Below, piece after piece: positions 16,150-32,114 of a stretch of 64,000 bases of DNA. The stretch is taken from positions 1 through 64,000 of the forward strand of contig JAJEDY010000003.1 of the NCBI GenBank assembly GCA_022821275.1, read 5' to 3'. Position numbers and translations under genes: made by a program. The notes below the pieces were generated by a model. That model searched no databases, was not told the origin of the DNA, and saw only the letters and a program-made list of their open reading frames with translations. The number at the start of each line of letters is the position of its first letter. Within the stretch, counting starts at the first letter, position 1. This DNA is from Candidatus Latescibacterota bacterium. Its GTDB lineage: Bacteria > Latescibacterota > UBA2968.

Positions 16150-18108
16150 ATGGCAGAGCGATTCGAACAACTTTCGGAAAAAACACCCGTGCGGGCGGTG
16201 ACAACGCGGTCGGTAATTGCATCGGTAGTGGTAATTACTGTAAGCGTACTGTGGAATGAGTGGATGCCTTACTATACGTCGGGATCGAACATCAGCCGCA
16301 GCCATTTCCCCCTGGCGTTTTTCTTTCCGTTTTTGATCGCGTGTACACTCAACCTGACATTGAACCACTTGCGGGCGGGCTGGGGGCTTTCGCGGTCGGA
16401 ATTGCTGGTGGTTCTGGGATCGGGCTTTGTGGGGATCGCGCTGGCTTATGACGGGTTGACCGGCCACTTCTTCGGGGTTCTGGCAGCCCCTTATTATTTT
16501 TCATCTGTGGAAAATGGATGGGGTTTTATACACGACACCATCCCCACATGGCTCGCCCCCTCGAACGCCACGGGTGAAATGACGCGATTTTTTGAAGGCG
16601 GGGGCGGGTCCCCCCCGTGGCGCGTGTGGGCGGTACCGGTTTTCTGGTGGATGTGCTTTTTCGGCGCAATGGGCTTTGGGGTATTTTGCCTGGTCGTAAT
16701 TTTGCGAAAACAATGGGTGGATTACGAGAGATTATCGTACCCACTCGTCGAAGTCGCACAATCTCTGGCAGAGACAGAAAAAGGCGGCGGACTGGAAAAA
16801 ACGTTTCGCTCTCCCCTATTCTGGATCGCATTTTCTCTGGTCATGCTCTTGAAATTGTGGAATATCGCGTCTTATTTTACTCCGGCATTTCCGCATATAG
16901 ACATCGAAGAAACACTGTGGCAACCGATTCCGGACTTTCCCTGGATGGTCAATCGCCTGAGTTTCTACGCCATTGGATTCGGGTATTTCGCGCGCCTGGA
17001 TGTGCTGTTCAGCGTGTGGTTCTTCATCATTTTGACGGCGTTTCAGGTATATGTATTCAATATCTTCGGGTATCAAATCGGCGCAGCAACCCGACACTGG
17101 ACAAGCGATGCCCTCGGCTGGCAAAGCATTGGCGCATTGATCTTTTTATCCGCCTGGGGATTGTGGATGGCGCGCGCGCATTTGAAGGCTGTGGTGCGAA
17201 AAGCCCTGTATCCCAATTGCGAAGTGGATGACAGCGGCGAGTTGCTGTCCTATCGCCTGGCGGTGTTCGGCTTATTGGGAGCATTCGCGTTTGTCTCAGC
17301 GTGGCTATATACGGCGGGCATGCCCTTGTGGGTGGTATTCTCCTTTCTCATTTTGGCGATGTTGTTATTCCTGGGCCTTGCGCGCGCCATTGCAGAATTG
17401 GGCCTGGTCTATGTGTATTATCGCATTCAGCCCCACGATGCCGTGGTGCAGGCATTTGGCTCTGGTATGGTCGGGCTTTCCGGCGTGGTGGTACTCGGAT
17501 TTATGCATGTGTTTAACCAGTGGCCCGATATTGGGAAGGGATTTTTGATGCCTCCGTTCACCCAGGCGGTAAAAGCGGTGGATAAAGTCGTCAGTCCGCG
17601 GCGAATTACAGCGGTGCTGTGGCTGGCACTGGCACTGGGCTTCACCATCTCAATAGTGGATACCCTGTATTTGAGCTATGAATACGGAGCCTATAATCTG
17701 GGCAATATGGGGATGAAGAAGACGGGACCTGTGGCGTTTGATTTTGTGATCACAGAAATTCGGAATCCCATGGCGCCCGGCGGCAGTGGCAGGGTCATGT
17801 GGGCATTCATCGGGATGGGGCTGATGGCGATTTTGACGACCGTTCGCTACTGGGTGCCCTGGTGGCCCCTGCACCCGATTGGCCTGGCCATGCAAGGGAA
17901 CTACGGCGTGAGTAAGACGGTCTTTTCGATTTTTATCGTCTGGGCAATCAAAGCGGTGGTCATGAAAATGGGCGGCGTCCAATTGTACGAAAGGGGAAAG
18001 CCGTTTTTCATCGGCCTGCTGGCAGCACAGGCGGTGAGCACGGGTCTGGTATTTATCGTAGATTGGTTCTGGTTTCCTCTTCAAGGGCATAATGTGCATA
18101 ATTTCTGA
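16150..18108 (+). CDS. DUF6785/DUF6784-type polytopic membrane protein, copy 2
   Basis: A 652-residue paralog of the protein at 11135-13105, alike along its whole length, including WNEWMPYYTSGSNISRSHFP, RKQWVDYERLSYPLVEV and WPLHPIGLAMQGNYGVSKTV. The ATG at 16150 is preferred because its MAER aligns with MAES of copy 1; a GTG at 16141 directly abuts the previous stop codon. Identity is highest in the last 250 bp, with runs of about 30 identical bases, suggesting recent duplication or gene conversion. It is probably co-transcribed with the GPH symporter. Function is unknown; a transporter role is inferred from topology. Confidence 0.8.
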   Translation: MAERFEQLSEKTPVRAVTTRSVIASVVVITVSVLWNEWMPYYTSGSNISRSHFPLAFFFPFLIACTLNLTLNHLRAGWGLSRSELLVVLGSGFVGIALAYDGLTGHFFGVLAAPYYFSSVENGWGFIHDTIPTWLAPSNATGEMTRFFEGGGGSPPWRVWAVPVFWWMCFFGAMGFGVFCLVVILRKQWVDYERLSYPLVEVAQSLAETEKGGGLEKTFRSPLFWIAFSLVMLLKLWNIASYFTPAFPHIDIEETLWQPIPDFPWMVNRLSFYAIGFGYFARLDVLFSVWFFIILTAFQVYVFNIFGYQIGAATRHWTSDALGWQSIGALIFLSAWGLWMARAHLKAVVRKALYPNCEVDDSGELLSYRLAVFGLLGAFAFVSAWLYTAGMPLWVVFSFLILAMLLFLGLARAIAELGLVYVYYRIQPHDAVVQAFGSGMVGLSGVVVLGFMHVFNQWPDIGKGFLMPPFTQAVKAVDKVVSPRRITAVLWLALALGFTISIVDTLYLSYEYGAYNLGNMGMKKTGPVAFDFVITEIRNPMAPGGSGRVMWAFIGMGLMAILTTVRYWVPWWPLHPIGLAMQGNYGVSKTVFSIFIVWAIKAVVMKMGGVQLYERGKPFFIGLLAAQAVSTGLVFIVDWFWFPLQGHNVHNF

Positions 18109-18135
18109 TCCAATACCCCCATTATTTTCTTCTTC

Positions 18136-18164
18136 TTGACTCATAACCCAAAAGCTGGTATTGT
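18136..18164 (+). promoter_or_regulatory. Sigma70 promoter for ctaB
   Basis: TTGACT (18136-18141), a 17-bp spacer and TATTGT (18159-18164) lie about 60 nt before the ctaB ATG. The predicted transcript starts near 18171. This rules out the in-frame TTG at 18161 as the start codon. Confidence 0.7.
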
Positions 18165-18223
18165 TATGGCTTCTAAAAACAAGTGGTGCTTTTGATCAAC
18201 CTCTTTTTAAAAAAATATCCTTT

Positions 18224-19105
18224 ATGAACGCCGAACTGGTACAGGCAAAAACATTTGTAAACGACTTACTTGTTTTGATTAAATTTCGGATTGGCCTGAT
18301 GGTCGTGTTTAGCACTTCTGTGGGATATGTGCTGGGCATGGGATATGTCTCCGATCCGATTCACATCTTCCATGTGCTATTCGCCACTTTTTTGACCACT
18401 TCCGGCACGGGCGTTTTGAACCAATTTATGGAGTGCGAGCGCGATGCGAGAATGGGGCGCACGGCGGACAGACCACTACCCGCAGGACGCATTGCGCCAG
18501 AATTGGCCTGCTGCTTCGGGCTAATTCTGAGTGGTATAGGCATTGTCTATCTGGGGATGTTGGTCAATATTTTGACCGCGCTGGTGGGCTTATTAACCGT
18601 GGTGGTATATTTGCTCCTCTATACGCCCTTAAAGCCCAGAACACCGCACAATACAGCGATTGGCGCCATCGCAGGCGCGTTGCCCCCTGTGGGTGGATGG
18701 ACCGCAGCAACAGGCGTTTTGAGTGGCGAAGCACTCGCTTTATTTGGTATTTTGTTTTTGTGGCAATTCCCTCACTTTTTGTCCATTGCCTGGCTTTACC
18801 GCGAGGATTATGCACGCGGTGGATTTCGCATGCTACCCATAGGAGACCCGCAAGGCCATAGAACCGCCCATCAGGTTGTACTTTATACCCTGGTCTTGTT
18901 GTCGTGTAGCCTGATGCCAGCGCTATTGGGCATGGCTGGTGTCGCGTATTTTGGCGTTGCCGTGTTGCTCGGCCTGGGGCTGCTGTACGCCAGTTTGACC
19001 TTCGCGGGATCGCGCACAGATGTGCAAGCCCGCCGTCTGATGCGAGCAACACTCATATACCTGCCCGTGTTGTGGACGGTCATGATGTTGGACAAAATTA
19101 CGTAA
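18224..19105 (+). CDS. ctaB: Protoheme IX farnesyltransferase (heme O synthase)
   Basis: A 293-residue inner-membrane UbiA-family prenyltransferase that attaches a farnesyl group to heme B, giving heme O for heme-copper oxidases. Both Asp-rich regions are present: NQFMECERDARMGRTADRPLP (about 67-87) and, later, WLYREDYARGGFRMLP. About seven to nine helices are predicted, with KFRIGLMVVFSTSVGY at the start as in the family. The ATG at 18224 is chosen over TTG 18161 because a good promoter overlaps the latter; it lacks a clear ribosome-binding site. No oxidase or heme A synthase genes are adjacent. A hairpin terminator follows, separating it from the ABC genes. Confidence 0.95.
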   Translation: MNAELVQAKTFVNDLLVLIKFRIGLMVVFSTSVGYVLGMGYVSDPIHIFHVLFATFLTTSGTGVLNQFMECERDARMGRTADRPLPAGRIAPELACCFGLILSGIGIVYLGMLVNILTALVGLLTVVVYLLLYTPLKPRTPHNTAIGAIAGALPPVGGWTAATGVLSGEALALFGILFLWQFPHFLSIAWLYREDYARGGFRMLPIGDPQGHRTAHQVVLYTLVLLSCSLMPALLGMAGVAYFGVAVLLGLGLLYASLTFAGSRTDVQARRLMRATLIYLPVLWTVMMLDKIT

Positions 19106-19127
19106 CAAAAAAATGTCCATCTAACTC

Positions 19128-19160
19128 AAAGGTGATAGGCTGACCTATCACCTTTCTTTG
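19128..19160 (+). terminator. Terminator after ctaB
   Basis: A perfect 12-bp stem, AAAGGTGATAGG (19128-19139) with CCTATCACCTTT (19144-19155), has a CTGA tetraloop and a T-rich tail, 22 nt after the ctaB stop. The ABC gene must be read by a weak read-through or a separate promoter. Confidence 0.9.
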
Positions 19161-19179
19161 TATGTGCAGGAGCGGTCAA

Positions 19180-20103
19180 TTGCAAGTAGCGATAAAGGTC
19201 GAAAATGTGAGCCACAAATTTGGCGACCGCGTGGCCTTAGACAATATCACACTACAGGTGATGACCGGAGAGATGTACGGTCTTTTAGGACCCAATGGCG
19301 GAGGGAAGACCACCTTATTTCGCATGTTGTGTACTATGCTACCCCCCACCCAGGGCACGATCCACCTGCTGGGGAAAAGCACCTCTACCAGCGCTGTGCG
19401 CGCACACATCGGGGTGGTTTTTCAGCATCCCAGTTTAGACGCGCGTTTGACCGTATCGGAAAATTTGCGCCATCAGGGCCATCTCTACGGTATGAAAGGC
19501 CGTCTCCTCTCCCAACGCATCGAAGAAGTCCTGAATATGATGTCCCTCACAGATCGCGCAAAAGATCGGGTAGAAGTGCTATCTGGCGGATTACAGCGGC
19601 GCGTTGAACTGTGCAAAAGCTTGTTGCACCACCCTGAAATATTGGTCTTTGATGAACCCTGCACTGGACTTGACCCCGGCGCACGGCGGAGGTTTTGGGA
19701 CGATCTGGATACTTTGCGGCAGACCTATGGTACGACACTGGTATTGACGACTCATTTTATAGAAGAAGCCGAGCGTTGTGACCGCATTGGCATTTTAGAT
19801 CGCGGTCAGCTAATTGCCGAAGGTACGCCCGAGGCATTAAAGCGCACAGTGGGATGCGAAGTAATCACCCTTGAAACACGCGATTCCAAAAGTCTGCAAT
19901 TGCAAATCGAAAAAATTTTAGATCGCGATGTCCAGATACTTGACGGACAGGTACGCATTGTCTGCGATGACGGGCAAAGACTGTTGGCGAAGCTGTATCC
20001 CCTTCTGAGAGAGGAAGTTCAAGCCATGACCTTAAGCGTACCCACACTTGAAGATGTTTTTGTACAGCGAACGGGACACGGATTTAAGGTGGAGGATCAA
20101 TAG
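19180..20103 (+). CDS. ABC-2-type exporter, ATP-binding subunit
   Basis: A 307-residue cytoplasmic ATPase. TTG 19180 is preferred as start because AGGAG lies 7 nt upstream; an ATG at 19162 would precede that site. Walker A is LLGPNGGGKTTLFR (the usual SG is GG here), the signature is VLSGGLQRRVEL in place of LSGGQ, Walker B is ILVFDEPCTGLDP, and the switch His is in LTTHFIEEAE. This is the DrrA/CcmA-like class with a C-terminal regulatory extension (about 230-307). It overlaps the permease gene by one base (TAGTG). The substrate is unknown. Proximity to ctaB suggests, but does not show, a role in respiratory-complex assembly. Confidence 0.92.
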   Translation: MQVAIKVENVSHKFGDRVALDNITLQVMTGEMYGLLGPNGGGKTTLFRMLCTMLPPTQGTIHLLGKSTSTSAVRAHIGVVFQHPSLDARLTVSENLRHQGHLYGMKGRLLSQRIEEVLNMMSLTDRAKDRVEVLSGGLQRRVELCKSLLHHPEILVFDEPCTGLDPGARRRFWDDLDTLRQTYGTTLVLTTHFIEEAERCDRIGILDRGQLIAEGTPEALKRTVGCEVITLETRDSKSLQLQIEKILDRDVQILDGQVRIVCDDGQRLLAKLYPLLREEVQAMTLSVPTLEDVFVQRTGHGFKVEDQ

Positions 20104-20873
20104 TGAGAATGGCTTTCTGGTTGCCTGTCGTGTCGCTCTGGCGGCGCGAACTGGTGCGCTTTGCCCGAGATCGCAATCGATTATTCGGTGCAATAGGCCA
20201 ACCGCTCGTGTTCTGGTTGCTATTGGGCGCTGGTTTTGAAAAGTCTTTCGCACCCCTGGGGATTACCAGTGGATATCTGGAATATATTTATCCGGGAATA
20301 TTGTTGCTAATTGTATTATTCACAGCGATCTTTTCGACCATTTCGGTCATTGAAGACCGGCGCGAAGGATTTATGCAATCGGTGCTGGTCGCGCCCGTAT
20401 CCCGGATCGGATTGGTGCTCGGCAAGGTTTTGGGTGGCGGAACCCTTGCATTTTTGGAAAGCCTGATATTTCTGGTATTTCTGGTATTTTTAGATATCCC
20501 CATCAGCATTGCATCTTTGGGCCTGACCCTCATTTTCCTGGCTGTACTGGGCATTACACTCACTGCTCTGGGCTTTGCGATAGCCTGGCAGGCATCATCC
20601 ACTGCGGGATTCCACGCGGTGATGACTTTGTTATTATTCCCCATGTGGGCGCTGTCTGGCGCGTTTTTTCCCGCAGAGGGCGCATCGCGCTGGCTGGCGT
20701 ACCTGATGGCAATAAATCCATTGACTTATGGTATGGATGGTTTGCGCCAATCTCTTTACCTCACAACATCTGGTGCAAACACCCATTTGTGGTTTTGTGG
20801 CATAATAAGCGTGGCATTTGCAGTCCTGACCCTCAGCGCAGCCGTGTGGCAGGTATGTCGAAAACGGAAATAA
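20103..20873 (+). CDS. ABC-2-type exporter, permease subunit
   Basis: A 256-residue inner-membrane permease starting at GTG 20103, which overlaps the ATPase stop; GGAGG is 7 nt upstream. About six hydrophobic helices are visible, with YIYPGILLLIVLFTAIFSTISVIEDRREGFMQSVLVAPVSR in the centre, the typical ABC-2 (DrrB/NodJ-like) coupling region. It works as a dimer with the preceding ATPase. No lipoprotein or periplasmic partner gene follows. The exported substrate cannot be inferred. Confidence 0.92.
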   Translation: MRMAFWLPVVSLWRRELVRFARDRNRLFGAIGQPLVFWLLLGAGFEKSFAPLGITSGYLEYIYPGILLLIVLFTAIFSTISVIEDRREGFMQSVLVAPVSRIGLVLGKVLGGGTLAFLESLIFLVFLVFLDIPISIASLGLTLIFLAVLGITLTALGFAIAWQASSTAGFHAVMTLLLFPMWALSGAFFPAEGASRWLAYLMAINPLTYGMDGLRQSLYLTTSGANTHLWFCGIISVAFAVLTLSAAVWQVCRKRK

Positions 20874-20894
20874 GTTAGGGGCTGGAGACTGGGG

Positions 20895-20905
20895 GCTGGG
20901 CGGCC
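20895..20905. repeat. Short intergenic word GCTGGGCGGCC, copy 2
   Basis: An exact match to 14235-14245, embedded in low-complexity intergenic sequence with GGGGCTGG-like words and two CACGTCT words (20910-20930). The rest of the 140-bp gap contains only the lipoprotein promoter. Confidence 0.4.
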
Positions 20906-20976
20906 CTCTCACGTCTCGCGTTTCACGTCTTGCTTTTTTATGGAACAGAAATCTTATTTAATGGTTGGATATTGTA

Positions 20977-21004
20977 TTGACAAAATGAATCTCTGGCGTA
21001 GTAT
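20977..21004 (+). promoter_or_regulatory. Sigma70 promoter immediately before the lipoprotein gene
   Basis: A perfect TTGACA (20977-20982), 16-bp spacer and TAGTAT (20999-21004). The predicted start site (about 21011) is only 3 nt before the ATG, and no ribosome-binding site is seen, so the mRNA would be leaderless or nearly so. Confidence 0.65.
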
Positions 21005-21013
21005 GGTCTCGTC

Positions 21014-21748
21014 ATGCAGAAACTAACGCACCTATTATTTTTTACCTGTGTCTGTATGTTCTGTCTGGGTGGTTGTAGCTTGCTCGACCGTCAGCAAGGT
21101 CCCAAATTACTGGATTTGCGCACAGACCGGGGGCCAGACCCATCAGTGGGGCGTGGACAGGAAGTACAAATTACCATCGTGACAGATGATCCAGACAATG
21201 ACGAGTTGGATTTTCGCTGGATTGCGACCGGAGGTGAATTTGCTGCCAGCCGCGCCGATACGCTGATTGATCTGTTCCAGGATTCGGTAACAGTGGTATG
21301 GAAAGCACCCATTGAACCCGGCGTTTACGAGTTGTTTTTAGAATTGGGTGACGGCCAATCTGAGATATTGGTGACTTCGGGAATGCGTATTGCCGTAACG
21401 CAAGCCCCCCCCATCGCTATTGTCGGCCCAGATCGGGAATTGGGTTTTCACGATGAACTGCGCGTGATCTTAGATGGCACTGGCAGTTCGGATCCGGACC
21501 AGGACGCGCTGATGTATTTTTGGACACAGATTGCGGGACCGCGCGTGGGATTGCAAAATAGCAGTGGACCATCGCCCGAGTTTCCCGTGCCTGCACCGGC
21601 GGATTACATTTTTGAACTGCGCGTGGCAGACCTGATACAGGGCGTGGGCGATACGAGCAATGTGGCAGTTACACGGATTCGCGTAACAGACCGCACTGGG
21701 CGCGTGACCGAGTCTGGCCTGGCTCGGCTATTGAACCGCGGGCAGTGA
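21014..21748 (+). CDS. PKD/REJ-like lipoprotein
   Basis: A 244-residue predicted lipoprotein. The signal peptide ends in the lipobox LGGC (Cys about residue 21), so the protein is lipid-anchored. Two Ig-like beta-sandwich units follow: residues about 38-130 (DPDNDELDFRWIATGGEF) and about 135-235 (GTGSSDPDQDALMYFWTQIAGP). The D-PD-D-L-F-W pattern is typical of PKD/REJ-like domains that bind other proteins or sugars. No enzyme motif is seen. It lies alone between the ABC exporter and a convergent DNA polymerase. The role is unknown. Confidence 0.8.
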   Translation: MQKLTHLLFFTCVCMFCLGGCSLLDRQQGPKLLDLRTDRGPDPSVGRGQEVQITIVTDDPDNDELDFRWIATGGEFAASRADTLIDLFQDSVTVVWKAPIEPGVYELFLELGDGQSEILVTSGMRIAVTQAPPIAIVGPDRELGFHDELRVILDGTGSSDPDQDALMYFWTQIAGPRVGLQNSSGPSPEFPVPAPADYIFELRVADLIQGVGDTSNVAVTRIRVTDRTGRVTESGLARLLNRGQ

Positions 21749-21781: not shown

Positions 21782-21812
21782 AAAGAGCAGGTGGAAACCT
21801 GCTCTTTTTTTT
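21782..21812 (+). terminator. Terminator after the lipoprotein gene
   Basis: A perfect 11-bp stem, AAAGAGCAGGT (21782-21792) with ACCTGCTCTTT (21797-21807), has a GGAA tetraloop and eight T residues. Its T run touches the stop codon of the convergent polymerase gene. Confidence 0.93.
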
Positions 21813-23937
21813 AGAACAGACAGAGTTGATCGCGTGCGACGGGTTGAATCAGGGGAAAAAGACGGCGAAATTCGCCATCGGGAAATAGAACGCGGAAACG
21901 CTCGGCCATATCGTGCAATCGGCGCAACAAATAGCCCCGGTCTTCATCGTGGGTAAAGAATTCCGCGCGAGAAAGTGAGCCATCCTGGCACTGGTAAACC
22001 GCGATCCGCTCGCCAATACGACAGCCAGCCGCCGCCATAGCAAGCCGGCTCAGATTCGGGTTGGAAAAGGTCTTTTTGGTAATGCGCTCAAACCGACAAA
22101 AATCTTCGGGATCAATTTTGCCATCTTGCAACTTGCGCCCAAGAGATAGATATGCACGGGAAGCAACTTCTGTATCGCCATCGACGAGCACGGGTGCGAT
22201 CTGTGCAATAAATTGGCGAAAGATGCGTTCATCGCGTCGGCTTCGCAGGCTACTGCCCACAAGCGATACACCACCATCGTAATCGACGAGAATATAATTT
22301 TTTGCCTTGAGGCTGATCATCCCTTTGAAGCGACCGTCGTGCGAGAGATGAATACCACGGGGCAAGGTAGATGAAATCTCCTCAATGAGTTGTTTTTCAT
22401 CGGCCTCTGTCACGACATGCAGCGGCGCAACAAAATAAGCCCCATCGGTATCCACTTCGATAATTTCCCCCCCGGCATCGCGTAACTCAGCCACGAGTTG
22501 GCGGGCAATTTGTTGCCCCATTTCAGTGATTTTTTGCGCGGCGTGGTAGTCGTTAAAACACGCGCGTCCGTACGCGAGATATCCGTAAAAAGAGTTGATG
22601 AGAATTTTGTAGCTGCCCTGCAACCCATTCCAATATGCGCGGTCGGTTTCGTCATGTGCACTTTGAAAATTGGTTTTTGCCTCAAGACGTCGCTGCGTGA
22701 GATGTTCGAGCATGGGCAGAAAAGCATTTTCAGTATCGGTCGCCGGGCGGATCTGTTGCGTCAACATAATCGATGGATAAAGGCTCTCGACATCGGCTTT
22801 GACCACGCGCTTAAAAATACCCGAAGCCACGAGTCGCGTATAACCACCGCTAAACTCCTTTGAAGGCCGCGGTTTGGGAATCGCGAGCTTGCGACGCAGG
22901 TAAAGCCCAACCATAAGGGCGTTGATTTTCTCTCCCGGACCACTGAGTGCAGCGTCCTGAAATCCATAGGGCAAAATCTGTGTCTGATAAAATTCAGTGG
23001 GAACGACCACCTCACTGAGCGCTTTGACATCGCGCACATCGTCGATCGCGTAGTCAATGAGGCGTTGAGGATCGGTGCGCCAGGTATGGGCAATTTCTTC
23101 CCCCTCGACAAATGTGCGCCCTGCCCGCTCGAGACCGAGTGCGTGGATGACTTGCTTGAGGCCATAGCGCTCCAACTTGCCTCCGGTATCGTAACGCTGT
23201 ACTTGTTGTAGCGTGTCGATAATATGTCGCCCGTGGACATAAGCCGGGCGAAAACCCGGGATGCGTGCCCCAACTTTGAAGACGCGCTGCCCATGCCCCG
23301 CACGCAAGGCCGACCCATCGCGCCCCCATCTGAGCGAAATGCCATAGTGTTGGGCGCGAGCGACGATATAGGGCAAGTCAAATTCAAAAATATTGTGGCC
23401 TTCAATCGTATCGGGGTCGCGCGCGTCGATCACTTTGTTGAGGTTGCGAAGCAGATCTGCCTCACTCATATCCGTAGCACTCAGCACGGTTTCAAAACCC
23501 CGCGAATCGGAAATAGAGATGAGAATGATCTGTGCATCGGGTGCCTGGGGATCGAGGGTGAGGGTCTCGATATCAAGTTGCAAGCGGTGGAGATCACCGT
23601 AGCGCATCTCTCGAAAGAGGGTTTGGCCCGAAAGCGTCAGATGCTGCCGCACGGGATTGTTAAAATTAAAATGCGGTACGCCATCCTGTGCGAGGCGGTC
23701 GCGTGCATCGAGAAAATGAGACCAACTGTGAAAGTGTATCCGCGCGCGAAACTCGCCGCCTCCTTTTAGACGCACGCACTCTGAAACTCCGACAAGGCCA
23801 GACCGGGCAGACTCTTCGGGCGTCTCAACGAGCAACCACGGGGAAAAGGGTTGCAGATCGCAATTATCGCGCGTGTACAACGCCATCTGGTTCCCGCCGA
23901 CGAGTTCGGCAGCGAGAACACCGGGGAGATAAGCCAT
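21811..23937 (-). CDS. Stand-alone family-B DNA polymerase
   Basis: A 708-residue polymerase (COG0417 type). The ATG at 23937 is chosen for its GGAG 8 nt upstream and a fitting promoter. The 3'-5' exonuclease motifs are present: ExoI LQLDIETL, ExoII NIFEFDLPYI, ExoIII YAIDDVRDVKAL. The polymerase motifs follow: A KADVESLYPSIML, B KILINSFYGYLAY, C EVDTDGAYF, all intact, so proofreading and synthesis activities are both expected. It is a little shorter than E. coli Pol II (783). It may serve in translesion or damage-induced synthesis, but no LexA-like site is visible. No replication partner genes are adjacent. Confidence 0.95.
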   Translation of the reverse strand: MAYLPGVLAAELVGGNQMALYTRDNCDLQPFSPWLLVETPEESARSGLVGVSECVRLKGGGEFRARIHFHSWSHFLDARDRLAQDGVPHFNFNNPVRQHLTLSGQTLFREMRYGDLHRLQLDIETLTLDPQAPDAQIILISISDSRGFETVLSATDMSEADLLRNLNKVIDARDPDTIEGHNIFEFDLPYIVARAQHYGISLRWGRDGSALRAGHGQRVFKVGARIPGFRPAYVHGRHIIDTLQQVQRYDTGGKLERYGLKQVIHALGLERAGRTFVEGEEIAHTWRTDPQRLIDYAIDDVRDVKALSEVVVPTEFYQTQILPYGFQDAALSGPGEKINALMVGLYLRRKLAIPKPRPSKEFSGGYTRLVASGIFKRVVKADVESLYPSIMLTQQIRPATDTENAFLPMLEHLTQRRLEAKTNFQSAHDETDRAYWNGLQGSYKILINSFYGYLAYGRACFNDYHAAQKITEMGQQIARQLVAELRDAGGEIIEVDTDGAYFVAPLHVVTEADEKQLIEEISSTLPRGIHLSHDGRFKGMISLKAKNYILVDYDGGVSLVGSSLRSRRDERIFRQFIAQIAPVLVDGDTEVASRAYLSLGRKLQDGKIDPEDFCRFERITKKTFSNPNLSRLAMAAAGCRIGERIAVYQCQDGSLSRAEFFTHDEDRGYLLRRLHDMAERFRVLFPDGEFRRLFPLIQPVARDQLCLF

Positions 23938-23984
23938 TGTATTACTCCAATTTGTTGCGGGAGAAGGGGAAAGCAACCTGTTAA

Positions 23985-24013: not shown

Positions 24014-24096
24014 TGTAGGGAGTTCTAAACCACGCAATCGCATATTCTACCAGACCTTTTGGTTGACGTATAAATCCGCGTGAGCTATGTTGTATT

Positions 24097-24110
24097 GCGA
24101 ATTATTTCGC
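24097..24110. promoter_or_regulatory. Candidate BlaI-type operator, distal dyad
   Basis: GCGAATTATTTCGC is a 5-bp inverted repeat (GCGAA/TTCGC) around TTAT. It lies 9 bp upstream of the -35 box. The same 14 bases recur at 24164-24177. It is the likely binding site of the BlaI-type repressor encoded next; this is inferred from position and symmetry. Confidence 0.7.
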
Positions 24111-24119
24111 TATTTGGGC

Positions 24120-24148
24120 TTGACAGTAGATTTTTAATCGGCTATTTT
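24120..24148 (+). promoter_or_regulatory. Sigma70 promoter of the blaI-M56 operon
   Basis: A perfect TTGACA (24120-24125), 17-bp spacer and TATTTT (24143-24148), lying between two identical dyads. The predicted start (about 24155) is directly before the second dyad, a good layout for repression. Confidence 0.8.
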
Positions 24149-24160
24149 TTTGAAAACTGA

Positions 24161-24180
24161 TATGCGAATTATTTCGCATA
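24161..24180. promoter_or_regulatory. Candidate BlaI-type operator, proximal dyad
   Basis: Here the dyad extends to 8-bp perfect arms, TATGCGAA and TTCGCATA, around TTAT. It lies just past the predicted transcription start, so bound repressor would block initiation or clearance. The core equals that at 24097-24110. Confidence 0.75.
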
Positions 24181-24212
24181 GTATTATCCAAAAAAATAAA
24201 AAGGAGTTAAAA

Positions 24213-24596
24213 ATGGCAAGACTGCGACAAGAGGGATTGACCACTCGTGAAATGGAACTCATACAGGTGCTCTGGCAACAAAAAGAAGCAACCGTCGAAA
24301 TGATCCAGGCAAAATTGCCCAACCGGTTAGAGGGATCAACCATTCGCACACTCCTGCAAATCATGGAAGACAAAGGCTATGTGGCACACGAAAAGCAAGG
24401 ACGCGCCAATGTGTACCGCCCCGTAATCGAACAGCAAAGCGTTCAATCCTCCGCAATGAAGCACATCATACAAAAACTATTTGGCGGTTCAACCGAACTC
24501 TTGCTGGCGCGACTGGTTGAAGACGAAGAGATAGACCTGGACGACGTGACGCGACTGCGTGAAAAACTCAAGCAACGCAGAGGAGATACATCATGA
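24213..24596 (+). CDS. BlaI/MecI/CopY-family repressor
   Basis: A 127-residue winged-helix repressor, close to the usual BlaI length (about 125). The ATG at 24213 has AAAGGAG upstream; in-frame upstream Met codons fall within the operator region and are rejected. The DNA-binding part (about 8-75) reads LTTREMELIQVLWQQKEATVEMIQ and GSTIRTLLQIMEDKGYVAHEKQGRANVYRPVI, as in the family. The C-terminal helices mediate dimerisation. The stop overlaps the M56 gene start (ATGA), the standard BlaI-BlaR1 arrangement. It most likely represses its own operon through the two dyads and is inactivated when the M56 partner is stimulated. Confidence 0.95.
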   Translation: MARLRQEGLTTREMELIQVLWQQKEATVEMIQAKLPNRLEGSTIRTLLQIMEDKGYVAHEKQGRANVYRPVIEQQSVQSSAMKHIIQKLFGGSTELLLARLVEDEEIDLDDVTRLREKLKQRRGDTS

Positions 24597-27500
24597 TCGA
24601 CACACCTGCTCTGGAACCCATTGCCATCTTTCTCCTCGATGCGACTATCAAGACCACCCTCTTTATGAGTCTTGTGCTATTTGCCGTGTGGCTCCTGGGT
24701 ACGCGACAGGCTGCCAAACGCAGTTTGCTGTTGAACTGGTGTCTTGTCGGCGTGCTGGTCATTCCCATCGCGTCTTTGTGCCTGCCTTCACTGCGATTTC
24801 AATTTGATGCGCCACCGCCCTCTCCAAAACCGGCTGATCCATCTCCCCAGCCTGTTGTTGTCCCTGATACCCCTCAGGCAAAATCCACGCCATCATTGCA
24901 ACAACAACGGATATCTGATAGCGTGTTTCCAGAAAACCCGGACCTATCTCAAGACTTCGTATCCCCCTTCCCCGCACGGATTATTTTCGCCAAAAATGCC
25001 GAGACAAAATCGGTCAATTGGACAACGCATATCCTGAATAAAATCACTTCAACACATGCTTTGTATGGTGTGATAGCGGCCTATATCATTGGTATGCTGG
25101 TTTTACTGATCCGGGTAATCTATTGTCTTATAATGGTTTATAAATTTCGACAATCTTTAATGCCCTGTAGAGACGAACAGATTCAGAATAATTTGCAGGT
25201 CTTAAAGGAACAACTGGGCATTCGGCGATCTGTCGCACTCGCTGTCAGTGACAAAATCGGCAGCCCAACCCAGGTCGGCCTCTTGAATCCCGTAGTCGTA
25301 TTGCCCGCGCCTATGGTCGAATCCCGTGACCAGTTGGAACCGATTTTGATTCACGAACTCATTCACGTCAAGCGATGGGATTGCCTGTATCGTCTGCTGG
25401 CAATGATCGGTATGGCATTTTACTGGTTCAATCCCCTATTCCACCGCGTCAAACACCTGCTCTTTGAAGTACAAGAACAAGCCTGTGACGATTGGACAGT
25501 GACGACAACGGGCAATTCTGAAACCTATGCGGACACGCTTCTCAATGTGGCGACCCAACTACGTCCTCGTCCCGCGATGGCCCTGGGCATGGCGCGAGCA
25601 ACTCAGGTCATGGCGCGCGTCAATCGCATTATCACTCTGGGAGGTCATGTGACCCCGCGCGTCGGTCGCATATCGGCACTCGTAATAGCAGTGGCATTTA
25701 TCGGCGGCGCAACGACCATTGGCAGCCTGACCACTTCAAAGGCCGATCACAATGATCAAAAGGTCGTGTTTGAAGGTGGTATTGCCGCAACCGATACCAG
25801 CGACGTATCGCAGCACCTACTTCCGATAAAAATGCGCGATGGTCGCCTGTGGTGGCGTGGCGAGAATGGTCTCTATTTGCAGGATGGAGATACGTGGCAA
25901 AAATTTACATTGCCAGAAGGTGGTTCATTCGACCAGATGCATGCCTTTATGCAAGCGCGCAATGGCTCAATGTGGTTTTCCGGTATATATAAAAACAGAC
26001 CAATTGCCGCGAACTTTAACGGACGGACCTGGCAGATATGGGATTCAAAAACAACGGGCCTGGGAAAAATTGCCCCGGGATATGATTTTGCCGAAGATGA
26101 CGAGGGCGGCATCTGGGTCATCCAGAGCTTTTCAAACCTCAGAGCACACGGAGGCCCCGATCGCTTCAAAGGCGGAAACGGCGTCTTGCATTTTGATGGC
26201 AAAGTGTGGCGCAACTATACGGTGGAAGATGGATTGATCCACAATCGGGTTTATAATGTGGAAGCCGATCCCAAAGGCGGCGTGTGGATCGCAACCCTTC
26301 GCGGATTGAGCCACTACAAAGATGGAAAATGGACCTCTCATATTGTCGATCGCGTGCCCGTAGAGGACGTGCGTAATGGCAATATATATGATGGCCGCAA
26401 GATCTATAAGCTATTTTACGACCAAAAAGGCACGCTTTGGGCCGTGCATGGATCGGTTATTGGACGCACCATAACGCGGCGCAGAGGAGGGATTTCCAGA
26501 TTTGACGGCACAGCCTGGACACACTACGATGCACATGATGGACTGCCTATAAATGCGTCTCGAAATATCTGGCAAACAGAAAATGGCGATCTGTGGTTTG
26601 GTACACACCGAGGTGACCAACGGGAGGTAGAAGCAAAAGGTATGATGCGGTATAAAGATGGGATGTGGTTGCGCCTGACGCGCAAGCACGGCATTCCCGG
26701 CGATACGGTATGGGGTCTGGTTGAAAAAGGCGACGGGGCTTTCTATCTGAGTGTTTCTGGTATTGTATCTCATTATAAACCACCTGTCGATCACCTGACA
26801 ACAATATCTGGTAAAGTAATTGATCAGCGCGACGGCCAACCCGTAGCAAAGATGGGCATATGGGTTGAATACGACGACGGCGAAGTGCATGCGGGAACCA
26901 TGACAGATACAAATGGTCGCTATCGCGTCGAAGTCACCCCAGGCGTATATCGCGTGCGGATCGCGTCCAGAAACGCGGCTGAACCCGTGACTGTTGAAGC
27001 AAAACCCGAGAGTAAAATTGAAGACATCAATCTGCTCTTACTCAACTCGCGCCGCATCTCTGGTCGTGTAATCGACACGTCTGATAATCCGATTGCCAAT
27101 GCTGTCGTCGTGATTTCCGATGCGTCCTCAGAAGATCAACGCCTATCTCCCCAGATAGTAACGACAGATGCCAATGGAAAATTTGAAGGTTGGCAGGTCT
27201 CGGGACCGAAGGCTACTTTTGAAGTCACTGCAGGAGGATATGCACAAACCGCGCTAACAGTTGAAAATGCAGCTGAAGGTCAGATGGCGATCGTCCTGAA
27301 CAAGGGAATAACCCTGCGCGGTCGCGTTGTGGATGAATTGGGCAAACCCATTGAATGGGCGCGCGTTGGTCCTGGACCGCCGCCGGATCCCGAAAAAAAA
27401 CCATATACACTACCCGCATTACCTTTTCAGCACAATACATACACCGATGCGTTGGGTCTGTTCACTCTAAATGACGTAGCGAAAGGTCACATCTGGGTGA

Positions 27501-28633
27501 ATCATCCCGAGATCGGAATTGTGAGTCAAGAGATTATCCCTGCCGATGATGTGATAGATATCCGCGTAGAGCGTTTGCGTTTGTATTCAGTTTCAGGTGT
27601 GGTGTTTTTAAATGAGGATTCTGTAGAAGGGCTGGAAATCAGCGCAATTTCCACCAAACGCCCATCTACAAGTGGACCTGCTCGGTCCAAAAGGGATTTT
27701 ATAGACGCTACTGGCGCGTATCGCTTTGATGACCTCGAGCCGGGGGAATATATAATTTCGGTCGGAGCATCCGAAGAATTGGAAATGGAAGAGCCAACAG
27801 TCACCATATATCGCACGATTCAATCTCGGAGGCTGGTAATTGAAGACCGCGATGTGACGCTGAACTTTGAACCCCTGGGCGATGCACAAATCACCGGTGT
27901 TGCGACTTATAAGGGACAACCTGTTTCAAGGGTTTATGTCAATAGCCGTGTGTTAGCCGATGATCCCCAGAAAACGGTTTCAGCAGGCGGTACTCAAACA
28001 GACAAAGAGGGACGATTTGAATTGCGCGATCTACCTTCTGTGCAGATTGCCATTTCTTTTTTCAAAATGGAACGCCCCGGTTCTGGTGGCAAGCGCTGGA
28101 GCAAAGTAGATACAATTGATCTGACAAATAAAAAAGAGTCGCGTTATCTAACCGAACTGAAAATGGAGGAACGTCCGACCCTGAGCCTGGGAGATATGGC
28201 ACCTGAATTTGAAGCCAAACAGCTGGATGGGTCAACATTCCGACTCGCAGATTACCGGGGCAAAAAAGCCTTGTTGATCGATTTTTGGGCAACCTGGTGT
28301 CCGCCGTGCATCGAGGAAATTCCAACAATTAAAAGAATTGCGGATACCTATCGCGATCAGGGATTGGAAGTCGTAGGCGTAAGTTTGGACCGCGATGAGA
28401 AGGCATTACGAGATTTTGTAAAACGCGAAAAACTGAGCTATGTTCAGGTATTTGAAAAAGAAAAAGCGCGGGCGATTACAAAATCCTACGGTGTATGGGG
28501 CATCCCATCGGTATTTCTGATAGATAAAAATGGCGTCATCAACGCGATGAAGCTGCGTGGAACGCGCACAGAAGTGGCTGTGAGGGCGTTATTAGCCACT
28601 GGCCTACAGACGGCTGATGGAAATTCGCGATAA
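24593..28633 (+). CDS. BlaR1-like M56 metallopeptidase fused to propeller, carboxypeptidase-regulatory repeats and a TlpA-like thioredoxin
   Basis: A 1346-residue chimeric sensor. TM helices lie at about 12-36, 46-63 and 155-182. A cytoplasmic M56 zinc-peptidase loop follows, with HELIH at 254-258 and a Glu in FEVQEQACDDW near 292-295, then a fourth TM at about 360-380. In BlaR1 the next part is a penicillin-binding sensor; here it is instead a periplasmic series: about 400-735 propeller-like repeats (WRGENGLYLQDGDTW, GGVWIATLRGLSHYKDGKW, GDLWFGTHRG); about 737-1190 four or five carboxypeptidase-regulatory-like sandwiches (SGKVIDQRDGQPVA, SGRVIDTSDNPIANA, RGRVVDELGKPI); and about 1197-1340 a TlpA/ResA-like thioredoxin with WCPPC (1235-1239) and cis-Pro at GIPSVF. 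The signal is probably periplasmic and may involve thiol chemistry, leading to cleavage of the BlaI partner. These roles are inferred. Confidence 0.9.
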   Translation: MIDTPALEPIAIFLLDATIKTTLFMSLVLFAVWLLGTRQAAKRSLLLNWCLVGVLVIPIASLCLPSLRFQFDAPPPSPKPADPSPQPVVVPDTPQAKSTPSLQQQRISDSVFPENPDLSQDFVSPFPARIIFAKNAETKSVNWTTHILNKITSTHALYGVIAAYIIGMLVLLIRVIYCLIMVYKFRQSLMPCRDEQIQNNLQVLKEQLGIRRSVALAVSDKIGSPTQVGLLNPVVVLPAPMVESRDQLEPILIHELIHVKRWDCLYRLLAMIGMAFYWFNPLFHRVKHLLFEVQEQACDDWTVTTTGNSETYADTLLNVATQLRPRPAMALGMARATQVMARVNRIITLGGHVTPRVGRISALVIAVAFIGGATTIGSLTTSKADHNDQKVVFEGGIAATDTSDVSQHLLPIKMRDGRLWWRGENGLYLQDGDTWQKFTLPEGGSFDQMHAFMQARNGSMWFSGIYKNRPIAANFNGRTWQIWDSKTTGLGKIAPGYDFAEDDEGGIWVIQSFSNLRAHGGPDRFKGGNGVLHFDGKVWRNYTVEDGLIHNRVYNVEADPKGGVWIATLRGLSHYKDGKWTSHIVDRVPVEDVRNGNIYDGRKIYKLFYDQKGTLWAVHGSVIGRTITRRRGGISRFDGTAWTHYDAHDGLPINASRNIWQTENGDLWFGTHRGDQREVEAKGMMRYKDGMWLRLTRKHGIPGDTVWGLVEKGDGAFYLSVSGIVSHYKPPVDHLTTISGKVIDQRDGQPVAKMGIWVEYDDGEVHAGTMTDTNGRYRVEVTPGVYRVRIASRNAAEPVTVEAKPESKIEDINLLLLNSRRISGRVIDTSDNPIANAVVVISDASSEDQRLSPQIVTTDANGKFEGWQVSGPKATFEVTAGGYAQTALTVENAAEGQMAIVLNKGITLRGRVVDELGKPIEWARVGPGPPPDPEKKPYTLPALPFQHNTYTDALGLFTLNDVAKGHIWVNHPEIGIVSQEIIPADDVIDIRVERLRLYSVSGVVFLNEDSVEGLEISAISTKRPSTSGPARSKRDFIDATGAYRFDDLEPGEYIISVGASEELEMEEPTVTIYRTIQSRRLVIEDRDVTLNFEPLGDAQITGVATYKGQPVSRVYVNSRVLADDPQKTVSAGGTQTDKEGRFELRDLPSVQIAISFFKMERPGSGGKRWSKVDTIDLTNKKESRYLTELKMEERPTLSLGDMAPEFEAKQLDGSTFRLADYRGKKALLIDFWATWCPPCIEEIPTIKRIADTYRDQGLEVVGVSLDRDEKALRDFVKREKLSYVQVFEKEKARAITKSYGVWGIPSVFLIDKNGVINAMKLRGTRTEVAVRALLATGLQTADGNSR

Positions 28634-28687
28634 ACTTTTTATGGCGTTGATGATCATTTGAAAGGAAAAGAATGCGATTCACAATCT

Positions 28688-29927: not shown

Positions 29928-32114
29928 TCATCTGCGTTTATCTGCGTTTATCTGCGGATCGTGGTGCTTTACCTTTCGCATCGCCCATCGTATCTCCTCC
30001 GCCGTCATATCCGGATCCGAGGGATTAATGAGATTGCCAAAAATATCTGCCCCCACCACATGTTTTCGCAAACCAGGTCCCCGCAAAAGCGACGTAATGT
30101 GGACTTGCATATGATATCCGCGATCCACGCCATCGGTCGGAGCTTGCATCAATGCCAGAGTATAGTGATACGGCGCGGCAAACAAACCATCTAATCCGCC
30201 GAGAACATCGCGCAATCCCGCTGATAGATCGCGCCGTTCCTCCCCATTCAAATCCAACAAACTCGCAGCGTGTGCCTTCGGCACAACGATCACATCATAG
30301 GGAAATTGTGCTGCAAACGGCACATAAGCCAACACATGAGGGCGATTAATGAGAATCCGTCGCCCATCTTCGGCTTCGACGCGATTGGCATCGCACACAA
30401 AACAACGCCCCGTTTTCTCGCGATGAGATTCAAACATAGCCAATTGCGGTTTCACCACCAAACCGGGAATCTCGCAATACGCATAAACCTGCCCATGCGG
30501 ATGCGGTTGAGAATTGCCCATCACCATGCCCCGATTCTCAAAAATCAGCGGATATACAATCTCTGGCACCTTCCCCAACCGATCGTAAATCTCTGCCCAG
30601 GCGTCAATCACCTGAACGAACGCATCTAAGGACAGCGTTGACAAACGCCGGCTGTGATTGGGCGCATAGACCACAACCTCGCACACGCCCCGAGAGGTGC
30701 GAGAGAGATATGGGCCCAATTGCGCCTGCGTTTGATAGGCATCCAATACCAGCGTGGGAAAATCATTCTCAAATGTCCACACACCCTTGTAATCTGGATT
30801 TACATCGCCTGCCGCCCGCGTATTTCCAGGGCAGAGATAGCATTCGGGATCATAAGCCATATCATCTGAATTCTCCATAGGCTGCGTTTCTCCGCGCCAG
30901 GGCCTGTCTGCGCGATGCGAGGCGATATTGACCCACCGATTCCAAAAAGGATTGAATCGCTCCTCCTGCACAACCCGATACCCGTGTGGATGAAGCCGAT
31001 GCCAGTGATAGGCGGATTCCAGCGTCTCATGTAGCGTTTCCCCTGCACCCCACCCCATATCGCGCTGAATGCGGCTCGCATCGGCAATAAGCGTTGCCGG
31101 GTCGCCTCTTCGCCGCGATCCAATCACTTCGGGAATGTCATGACCGGTCACCTCACGTGCGGCCTCCAAAATCTCCCGCACGCTCACACCCTGCTCCCTG
31201 CCGAGATTGTACGTCGCAGACTGTCCCCCCGCCAACAACATATCCAAACTTTTAATATGTGCATCGGCCAATTCCACCACAGAAATATAATCTCGCACTG
31301 CCGTGCCATCGGGGGTTGCATAATCATCCCCAAATACAGTTATCTTCTCGCGCTTCCCCAAAGCCACTTGCAAAACAATGGGGATCAAATGCGTCTCGGG
31401 ATCGTGATCTTCGCCGATCAACCGCGAAGAATCGGCACCTGCGGCATTAAAATAGCGGAGAACGACATATCGCCCCCCTGTCTGCTGCTCGGCATGGAGC
31501 AACATGCGTTCATCCATCATTTTCGTAATGCCATAGACATTCGTGGGAATTTTTAGCAGGGCGATATCTTCGTCGCAAAGTTCAAAAGCGATATGTTGTT
31601 CATACCACCCCAAAAGCGTCCCAAAATCCACCGCAGCGGGCATCAACTGGCTATTCTCAAAATCGCCATCTGCGATACACTTCTGCTGATAATTTTCCTT
31701 CAGCGGAATGTGTTCTGCACCAGGTTCGCCATATGTCGCCGCCGTAGATGATTTCACAATGGGCAATCCACGACCCACATCCAACAAATTCTGAAAAGCA
31801 ATCACATTATTCTCAAAATACCTGTACGGCTCATCTTGAGATTCTCCCACCAGCGTCCTGGCGGCAAAATCGAGAATACCACAAAAATGGTGTCTTTCAA
31901 AAACAGAAGATAAGGCGCTGTGATCGAGCAGACTGACATGCTCGAAACAAAATTGCTCCGGCCCATATACGCGTTCAAACAAGGTAATAACTTCCCGGTG
32001 TCCCGTTGACAGGTCATCCAGCACCACAACCCGGCGATGATCTTCCAACAGGCGCCGAACCGTGTGACTGCCAACATAGCCTGCTCCGCCCGTCACCAAA
32101 ACAGCATCTATCAT
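29928..32114 (-). CDS. Fused UDP-glucose 4-epimerase / galactose-1-phosphate uridylyltransferase
   Basis: A 728-residue bifunctional Leloir-pathway enzyme. Residues 1-375 are GalE: the NAD-binding GGAGYVGSH at 9-17, KSSTAATYG near 121 and the catalytic YGITK (Tyr 194, Lys 198). Residues about 385-715 are GalT: FNPFWNRWVNIASHR, the zinc pair CYLC (425-428), FENDFPTL and the nucleophile loop QPHPHGQ (His 538/540). All key residues are present, so both activities are expected. Two oddities: about 45 extra residues (about 144-190) between the epimerase Ser/Thr and Tyr, and a repeat-derived C-terminal tail (DPQINADKRR). GAGGAG precedes the ATG at 32114. Separate enzymes are the norm, so the fusion is unusual. 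Confidence 0.93.
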   Translation of the reverse strand: MIDAVLVTGGAGYVGSHTVRRLLEDHRRVVVLDDLSTGHREVITLFERVYGPEQFCFEHVSLLDHSALSSVFERHHFCGILDFAARTLVGESQDEPYRYFENNVIAFQNLLDVGRGLPIVKSSTAATYGEPGAEHIPLKENYQQKCIADGDFENSQLMPAAVDFGTLLGWYEQHIAFELCDEDIALLKIPTNVYGITKMMDERMLLHAEQQTGGRYVVLRYFNAAGADSSRLIGEDHDPETHLIPIVLQVALGKREKITVFGDDYATPDGTAVRDYISVVELADAHIKSLDMLLAGGQSATYNLGREQGVSVREILEAAREVTGHDIPEVIGSRRRGDPATLIADASRIQRDMGWGAGETLHETLESAYHWHRLHPHGYRVVQEERFNPFWNRWVNIASHRADRPWRGETQPMENSDDMAYDPECYLCPGNTRAAGDVNPDYKGVWTFENDFPTLVLDAYQTQAQLGPYLSRTSRGVCEVVVYAPNHSRRLSTLSLDAFVQVIDAWAEIYDRLGKVPEIVYPLIFENRGMVMGNSQPHPHGQVYAYCEIPGLVVKPQLAMFESHREKTGRCFVCDANRVEAEDGRRILINRPHVLAYVPFAAQFPYDVIVVPKAHAASLLDLNGEERRDLSAGLRDVLGGLDGLFAAPYHYTLALMQAPTDGVDRGYHMQVHITSLLRGPGLRKHVVGADIFGNLINPSDPDMTAEEIRWAMRKVKHHDPQINADKRR
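29929..29957. repeat. Dispersed CAGATAAACG-type repeat, copy C, inside the 3' end of the GalE-GalT gene
   Basis: On the minus strand the sequence is two perfect 10-bp units GCAGATAAAC flanked by partial units. It differs from copies A and B by a G for A and an A for G in each unit but keeps the 10-bp period. It encodes the tail QINADKRR and the gene's TGA stop (29928-29930). Confidence 0.75.

Follow-up and report, generated by a model that had tools for sequence, protein, structure and literature searches.

Staphylococci detect penicillin with BlaR1, an antibiotic sensor that undergoes autocleavage between Ser283 and Phe284. An outer signal alters the cytoplasmic protease of BlaR1, BlaI is then cleaved, and the promoters open (PMC9834060). 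The locus described here lies in a window of 64,000 nucleotides, the whole stretch of DNA that was analysed, from a Candidatus Latescibacterota bacterium whose genome comprises 5.66 Mb in 101 contigs. It carries a repressor gene of the BlaI type coupled to the gene of an M56 protease. Judged from its sequence, the 1346-aa product of the latter is a member of M56 but stands outside the BlaR1/MecR1 beta-lactam sensors, and a penicillin-binding (class D lactamase-like) sensor domain has no Pfam match anywhere in this protein. We consider it probable that the locus encodes a BlaR1-like proteolytic antirepressor that reads a cue in the envelope and derepresses secreted repeat proteins. The features of the locus are collected in Table 1.

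Table 1. Features of the blaI-M56 locus, in positions of the window
Feature	Position	Strand	Details
Predicted operator O1 (ATTGCGAATTATTTCGCTAT)	24094..24113	+	directly upstream of the -35 box
Predicted promoter TTGACA-17-TATTTT	24120..24148	+	between O1 and O2; TTGACA in 27/27 pairs
Predicted operator O2 (TATGCGAATTATTTCGCATA)	24161..24180	+	18/20 palindromic; about the transcription start
blaI-type repressor gene	24213..24596	+	127 aa; Penicillinase_R PF03965; RBS AAGGAG at 24201
M56 sensor-protease gene	24593..28633	+	intact ORF, 1346 aa; 4-base overlap with blaI
Four-TM M56 module	24593..25735	+	residues 1-381; HELIH 254-258, E295, D299
Beta-propeller, Reg_prop-like	25823..26791	+	residues 411-733
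CarboxypepD_reg-like beta-sandwich domains, about 5	26792..28162	+	residues 734-1190
TlpA/ResA-type thioredoxin domain	28166..28603	+	residues 1192-1337; WCPPC 1235-1239; cis-Pro motif GIPS
TPR-GWxTD gene-start remnant	28672..28685	+	homology stops here; rest (about 2.9 kb in G005) missing

The earlier note had read a four-TM M56 module with HELIH, a propeller, sandwich repeats and a WCPPC thioredoxin domain in one reading frame, and Pfam, phmmer, hydropathy and a structural model all confirm this. The ATG of the M56 gene sits in the stop codon of blaI (ATGA). Of the overlapping blaI gene claimed at the same time, the overlap stands, while its start had to be corrected from 24150 to 24213. Peptidase_M56 matches residues 141-343 (1e-34; 120 bits against a cut-off of 31), the HExxH motif is followed downstream by ExxxD, and hydropathy places four TM segments at about 10-37, 43-70, 153-186 and 357-381, with a C-terminal, presumably extracytoplasmic domain beyond them. 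In a phmmer search of the PDB, S. aureus BlaR1 (8exs) was matched over residues 164-318 (2e-6), the BT4663 propeller ectodomain (4a2l) at 8e-10, and ResA (4nmu) at 6e-21. Reg_prop (PF07494) reaches 3e-7 for the whole protein (30 bits against a cut-off of 20.4), its best repeat being 547-568; CarboxypepD_reg matches four stretches (4e-36) and AhpC-TSA/Redoxin residues 1200-1325 (2e-26). Among the NCBIfam families, the C-terminus is best named ResA and the N-terminus generic BlaR1, each with a score below the family's cut-off, and blaR1_generic (81.6 bits against 400) covers the M56 part only.

In the model of residues 377-1346, which is of low to moderate confidence (mean pLDDT 57), a propeller is followed by consecutive beta-sandwiches and a thioredoxin fold. 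The modelled C-terminus superposes on ResA-type structures in Foldseek (target TM-score 0.66-0.75), as the earlier assignment of a thioredoxin fold had foreseen, and together with the WCxxC and cis-Pro motifs this places the domain with TlpA/ResA in sequence and fold. The propeller region matches the BT4663/BT4673 ectodomains, in addition to its PF07494 score above cut-off, its blade count being uncertain in the model (pLDDT about 60). The model of the M56 module has a pLDDT of 34, so that the M56 assignment is based on the sequence.

Four unrelated domains in a single chain, found in a draft genome, could in principle stem from an assembly or annotation artefact that fused unrelated genes. 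The probability of this is negligible. Full-length four-part orthologues (1340-1365 aa, 64-92% identical) occur in separate assemblies of five further members of the genus, two of which consist of a single contig, and all five are free of stops and frameshifts, which rules out an artefact or frameshift at 24593-28633 and agrees with the uninterrupted frame claimed earlier. Each of the ten further genomes of the genus gave strong matches to the M56 protein, and some copies of the gene are interrupted by contig ends. A search of the four other genera of the same family found no M56 gene, and a plasmid search gave no record spanning 80% of the protein.

Within the genus, the zinc motif, CxxC and the cis-Pro motif are invariant in every alignment row covering them; the active site of the thioredoxin is WCPPC, or WCGPC in three genomes. 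In comparison with the window, the M56 core (0.10-0.19) and the thioredoxin domain (0.10-0.22) have the lowest dN/dS values; those of the propeller and sandwiches are 0.18-0.32, and those of the N-terminal 140 residues 0.25-0.37. Judged by these comparisons, the protease core and the thioredoxin are under the strongest purifying selection.

The repressor matches PF03965 with 101 bits (cut-off 22.6) and aligns with MecI at 9-120, over both the winged-helix DNA-binding and the dimerisation domain, as a BlaI/MecI repressor does. At the aligned MecI/BlaI cleavage position N101-F102, R100-L101 stands in all nine BlaI sequences checked. Because R100-L101 replaces N101-F102, the scissile bond of this BlaI may lie elsewhere, or the protease may have a different specificity. 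The genome has four BlaI genes, each paired with one of four M56 genes.

Alignment of the regions upstream of blaI revealed the palindrome TATGCGAATTATTTCGCATA, which occurs twice before the gene and flanks TTGACA-N17-TATTTT. A genome-wide scan with the pattern WTGCKAANTATTTMGCW, one mismatch being allowed, gave eight matches in the window's genome against none for the reversed pattern used as control. These matches are located at the window locus, in a pair at C94:16546/16611 and at one further single site on C94; none of the three remaining blaI genes has the palindrome. Across the genus, 27 same-strand pairs with a spacing of 60-67 bases were found in 11 of 11 genomes, many of these loci having been chosen for carrying the motif, so that the control count of zero there is not an independent genome-wide figure. 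Independent genome-wide figures come from the scan of the window's own genome and from that of ten genomes of neighbouring genera, which contain no palindrome pair and, as single matches, two for the palindrome and six for the control. At the motif-chosen loci, what counts as an independent observation is the pairing together with the promoter: TTGACA lies between the palindromes in every pair, and a TATTTT or TATCTT hexamer follows after 16-17 bases in 26 of the 27. It is BlaI that would bind these palindromes, and a BlaI variant in G008 (78%) is accompanied by variant palindromes. The BlaR1/BlaI logic put forward in the earlier note thus gains from the translationally coupled pair, the intact proteins, the conserved zinc ligands and the paired predicted operator before blaI and further promoters.

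Downstream of the 27 pairs, the blaI-M56 genes are found in nine cases, a secreted dockerin-TlpA protein in seven, usually followed by LRR proteins, a secreted TPR-GWxTD protein in four, and a 1040-1045-aa TPR protein with a lipoprotein-like gene in three. One pair each precedes an LRR operon alone (in the window's genome), a WD40 protein, an FtsX-like permease followed by LRR and TlpA genes, and a contig-end cut. Most predicted targets start with a signal peptide and contain repeat domains. The operator pairs point to secreted repeat proteins rather than to genes of a redox or cell-wall stress response. In the window's genome, the predicted regulon comprises only blaI-M56 and the C94 operon of three LRR genes (16687-21373).

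In relatives, a TPR-GWxTD gene directly follows the M56 gene. In the window, it is deleted past its first codons and joined to the galK flank, and as a local target it was rejected, being reduced to these codons. Its best homologue in the window's genome (C82) has no good operator match nearby. TPR-GWxTD secreted proteins form a large expanded family in this genome, with 50 tblastn matches (G000, L115). Beside galK, a 728-aa ORF (29928-32114, minus strand) fuses a GalE-type epimerase with GalT, the galactose-1-phosphate uridylyltransferase, into a fused Leloir enzyme; relatives have ORFs of similar length at this position. On the other side, a family B DNA polymerase gene (21811-23976, minus strand), mostly 93% identical in the genus, adjoins the blaI locus in most of its genomes.

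In some secreted LRR proteins (L128:5934-12374), the signal peptide is followed by a motif, DFDGDGQVGFxDFLxF, that resembles dockerins or EF-hands. The TlpA proteins of relatives begin with a similar motif, and a cohesin-like stretch opens one of the LRR proteins. A cohesin-dockerin-like surface assembly is possible. Latescibacterota have been reported from sponges, and LRR, TPR and WD40 proteins have been listed for sponge Latescibacterota (PMC12993501). The bacterium of the window is probably of sponge origin. The predicted targets belong to the secreted repeat protein classes discussed for sponge symbiosis, and the predicted operator and target list lets one ask what M56 sensors control in an uncultured lineage.

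The circuit that we propose would run as follows. BlaI dimers would bind the two palindromes bracketing their own promoter, and likewise those at a few others. From the inner membrane, the M56 protein would extend its zinc-protease domain into the cytoplasm and about 960 residues to the outer side. A cue in the envelope, read by the propeller, sandwich and thioredoxin ectodomain, would change the protease, which would then cleave BlaI and open the promoters, so that secreted LRR, TPR, WD40 and dockerin-TlpA proteins would be made along with the BlaI/M56 pair. The domains, the gene overlap, the conserved catalytic residues and CxxC, the paired palindromes and the gene list are present in the DNA itself, and the cleavage of BlaI by M56 and the direction of the response are proposed by analogy. 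The sidedness assumed here, with the zinc-protease side in the cytoplasm, gains some support from G007, where a secreted paralogue has a TM4-like segment at its N-terminus.

This paralogue is a free, lipoprotein-like thioredoxin of 182 aa (L044:16092-16640), whose N-terminus (GRVSALVIAVMFIAGTVAIGC) resembles TM4 of the sensor and is followed by a lipobox-like cysteine. It looks like the sensor TM4 joined to the thioredoxin domain, as if by internal deletion. A four-part paralogue of 1459 aa also lies in tandem in G007, and in G002 a 408-aa sandwich-thioredoxin protein adjoins blaI. Both free thioredoxins are 84% identical to the sensor domain and keep CxxC. At the syntenic locus of G002, behind the same operators, the M56 part is 75% identical, the propeller and sandwiches are replaced, and the protein ends in a thioredoxin 39% identical to that of the window; in the M56 tree, it nests among the four-part proteins. 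The G004 gene (L052) differs from that of the window by a dS of 0.37 in the M56 core and 0.06 in the propeller, which suggests recombination inside the M56 gene. The middle of the ectodomain has been exchanged at one locus within the genus.

What the thioredoxin does can be read in several ways. It may be a tethered enzyme, a disulfide reductase anchored in the membrane to maintain exported proteins, while the propeller and sandwiches act as the receptor. The free secreted copies adjacent in G007 and G002, which keep CxxC, are consistent with this, and so is the G002 protein, in which the thioredoxin stays while the middle is replaced; however, fusion to the sensor in all intact copies is left unexplained. 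We regard the tethered enzyme as possible. Alternatively, the thioredoxin may itself be the sensor, as a redox switch in which CxxC oxidation, or a mixed disulfide formed with some partner in the periplasm or with another chain, alters the ectodomain and activates the protease. The invariance of CxxC and the cis-Pro loop and the strong purifying selection on the domain are in line with such a switch, and so are the secreted dockerin-TlpA proteins in the predicted regulon of relatives, which are 33% identical to the sensor thioredoxin, and a DsbD-type electron carrier encoded in the window's genome. A conserved CxxC is, however, equally expected of an enzyme. Moreover, the CxxC cysteines are the sole ectodomain cysteines beyond TM4 in the window's protein, which excludes an intramolecular thiol relay within one chain to the propeller or sandwiches; any thiol partner must therefore be another chain. 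M56-sandwich-redoxin proteins lacking CxxC in family f6 of the phylum also argue against the switch, although they form a separate clade in the M56 tree. We regard the redox switch as possible, though less likely than not. The protein may sense redox stress or a carbohydrate through thiol exchange, as the earlier note had suggested, but this is no more than a possibility.

The same f6 proteins bear on a further reading, in which the thioredoxin fold serves for binding only and recognises a ligand or partner. At the CxxC position, they read WSKDESR, WSSYNEY, FTKEEPW and FFDRFKN (L105, L106, L110 and L112, respectively), and these cysteine-free redoxins would have to work in this way. With CxxC invariant in the genus of the window, pure binding is quite improbable for the thioredoxin studied here. 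The most likely arrangement, which we favour tentatively, is that the propeller and sandwiches are the ligand receptor and that the thioredoxin forms an invariable functional tip, which acts on another protein. A thiol-gated antirepressor, in which the thioredoxin tip would sense the thiol state or substrate load of the envelope and BlaI cleavage would control the LRR, TPR, WD40 and TlpA proteins, appears unlikely. The LRR, TPR and WD40 proteins would then be the eukaryotic-like repeat proteins through which a sponge symbiont encounters its host.

M56 proteins are present in 35 of 64 genomes of the phylum. In a survey of their outer domains, based on a subset of the M56 genes in which long ORFs are favoured, the ectodomains comprise TonB_C repeats, a PD40 propeller with FlgD_ig, DUF4159, M23, CarboxypepD_reg repeats with or without CBM9 or redoxin, DUF4837, and ExbD with FlgD_ig. 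BlaR1-type M56 modules fused to DUF4837, an M23 peptidase, and ExbD with FlgD_ig are found at L042:5139-7160, L061 and L064. The combination of M56, sandwiches and redoxin probably arose more than once, because the f6 proteins form a separate, well-supported clade and their redoxin lacks CxxC. Within the phylum, the version with Reg_prop and a CxxC thioredoxin was seen only in this genus, which bears out the earlier remark that the four-part order is unusual, M56 being joined elsewhere to many other ectodomains. A literature search, with most subscription journals outside its reach, found no report on M56 with a propeller or thioredoxin. The BlaR1-type protease is a chassis that carries many kinds of outer domain within a single phylum.

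Like the window's protein, the other M56 fusions of the phylum consist of an M56 chassis with an exchanged ectodomain, mostly with blaI adjacent in the cases looked at, but none of them pairs a Reg_prop propeller with a CxxC thioredoxin. With the hybrid two-component sensors BT4663/BT4673 of Bacteroides thetaiotaomicron, the protein shares a Reg_prop propeller as an outer sensor domain; unlike them, it has one propeller of about 320 residues and no kinase, and its output is presumably proteolysis. With the ResA/TlpA oxidoreductases, it shares the thioredoxin fold, WCxxC and cis-Pro, at about 30% identity to solved structures, but these occur alone or membrane-anchored alone, whereas the thioredoxin of the window is fused to the end of a protease-sensor.

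The closest systems are BlaR1/BlaI and MecR1/MecI of S. aureus. Like these, the locus has a repressor and M56 protease gene pair, four TM segments with HExxH...ExxxD, a repressor similar over both domains, palindromes at the promoter and apparent autoregulation. Unlike them, its protease carries about 960 outer residues of other domains in place of a penicillin-binding sensor, its BlaI has R-L where MecI has N-F at the cleavage position, its palindrome is another one, and its predicted targets are secreted repeat proteins.
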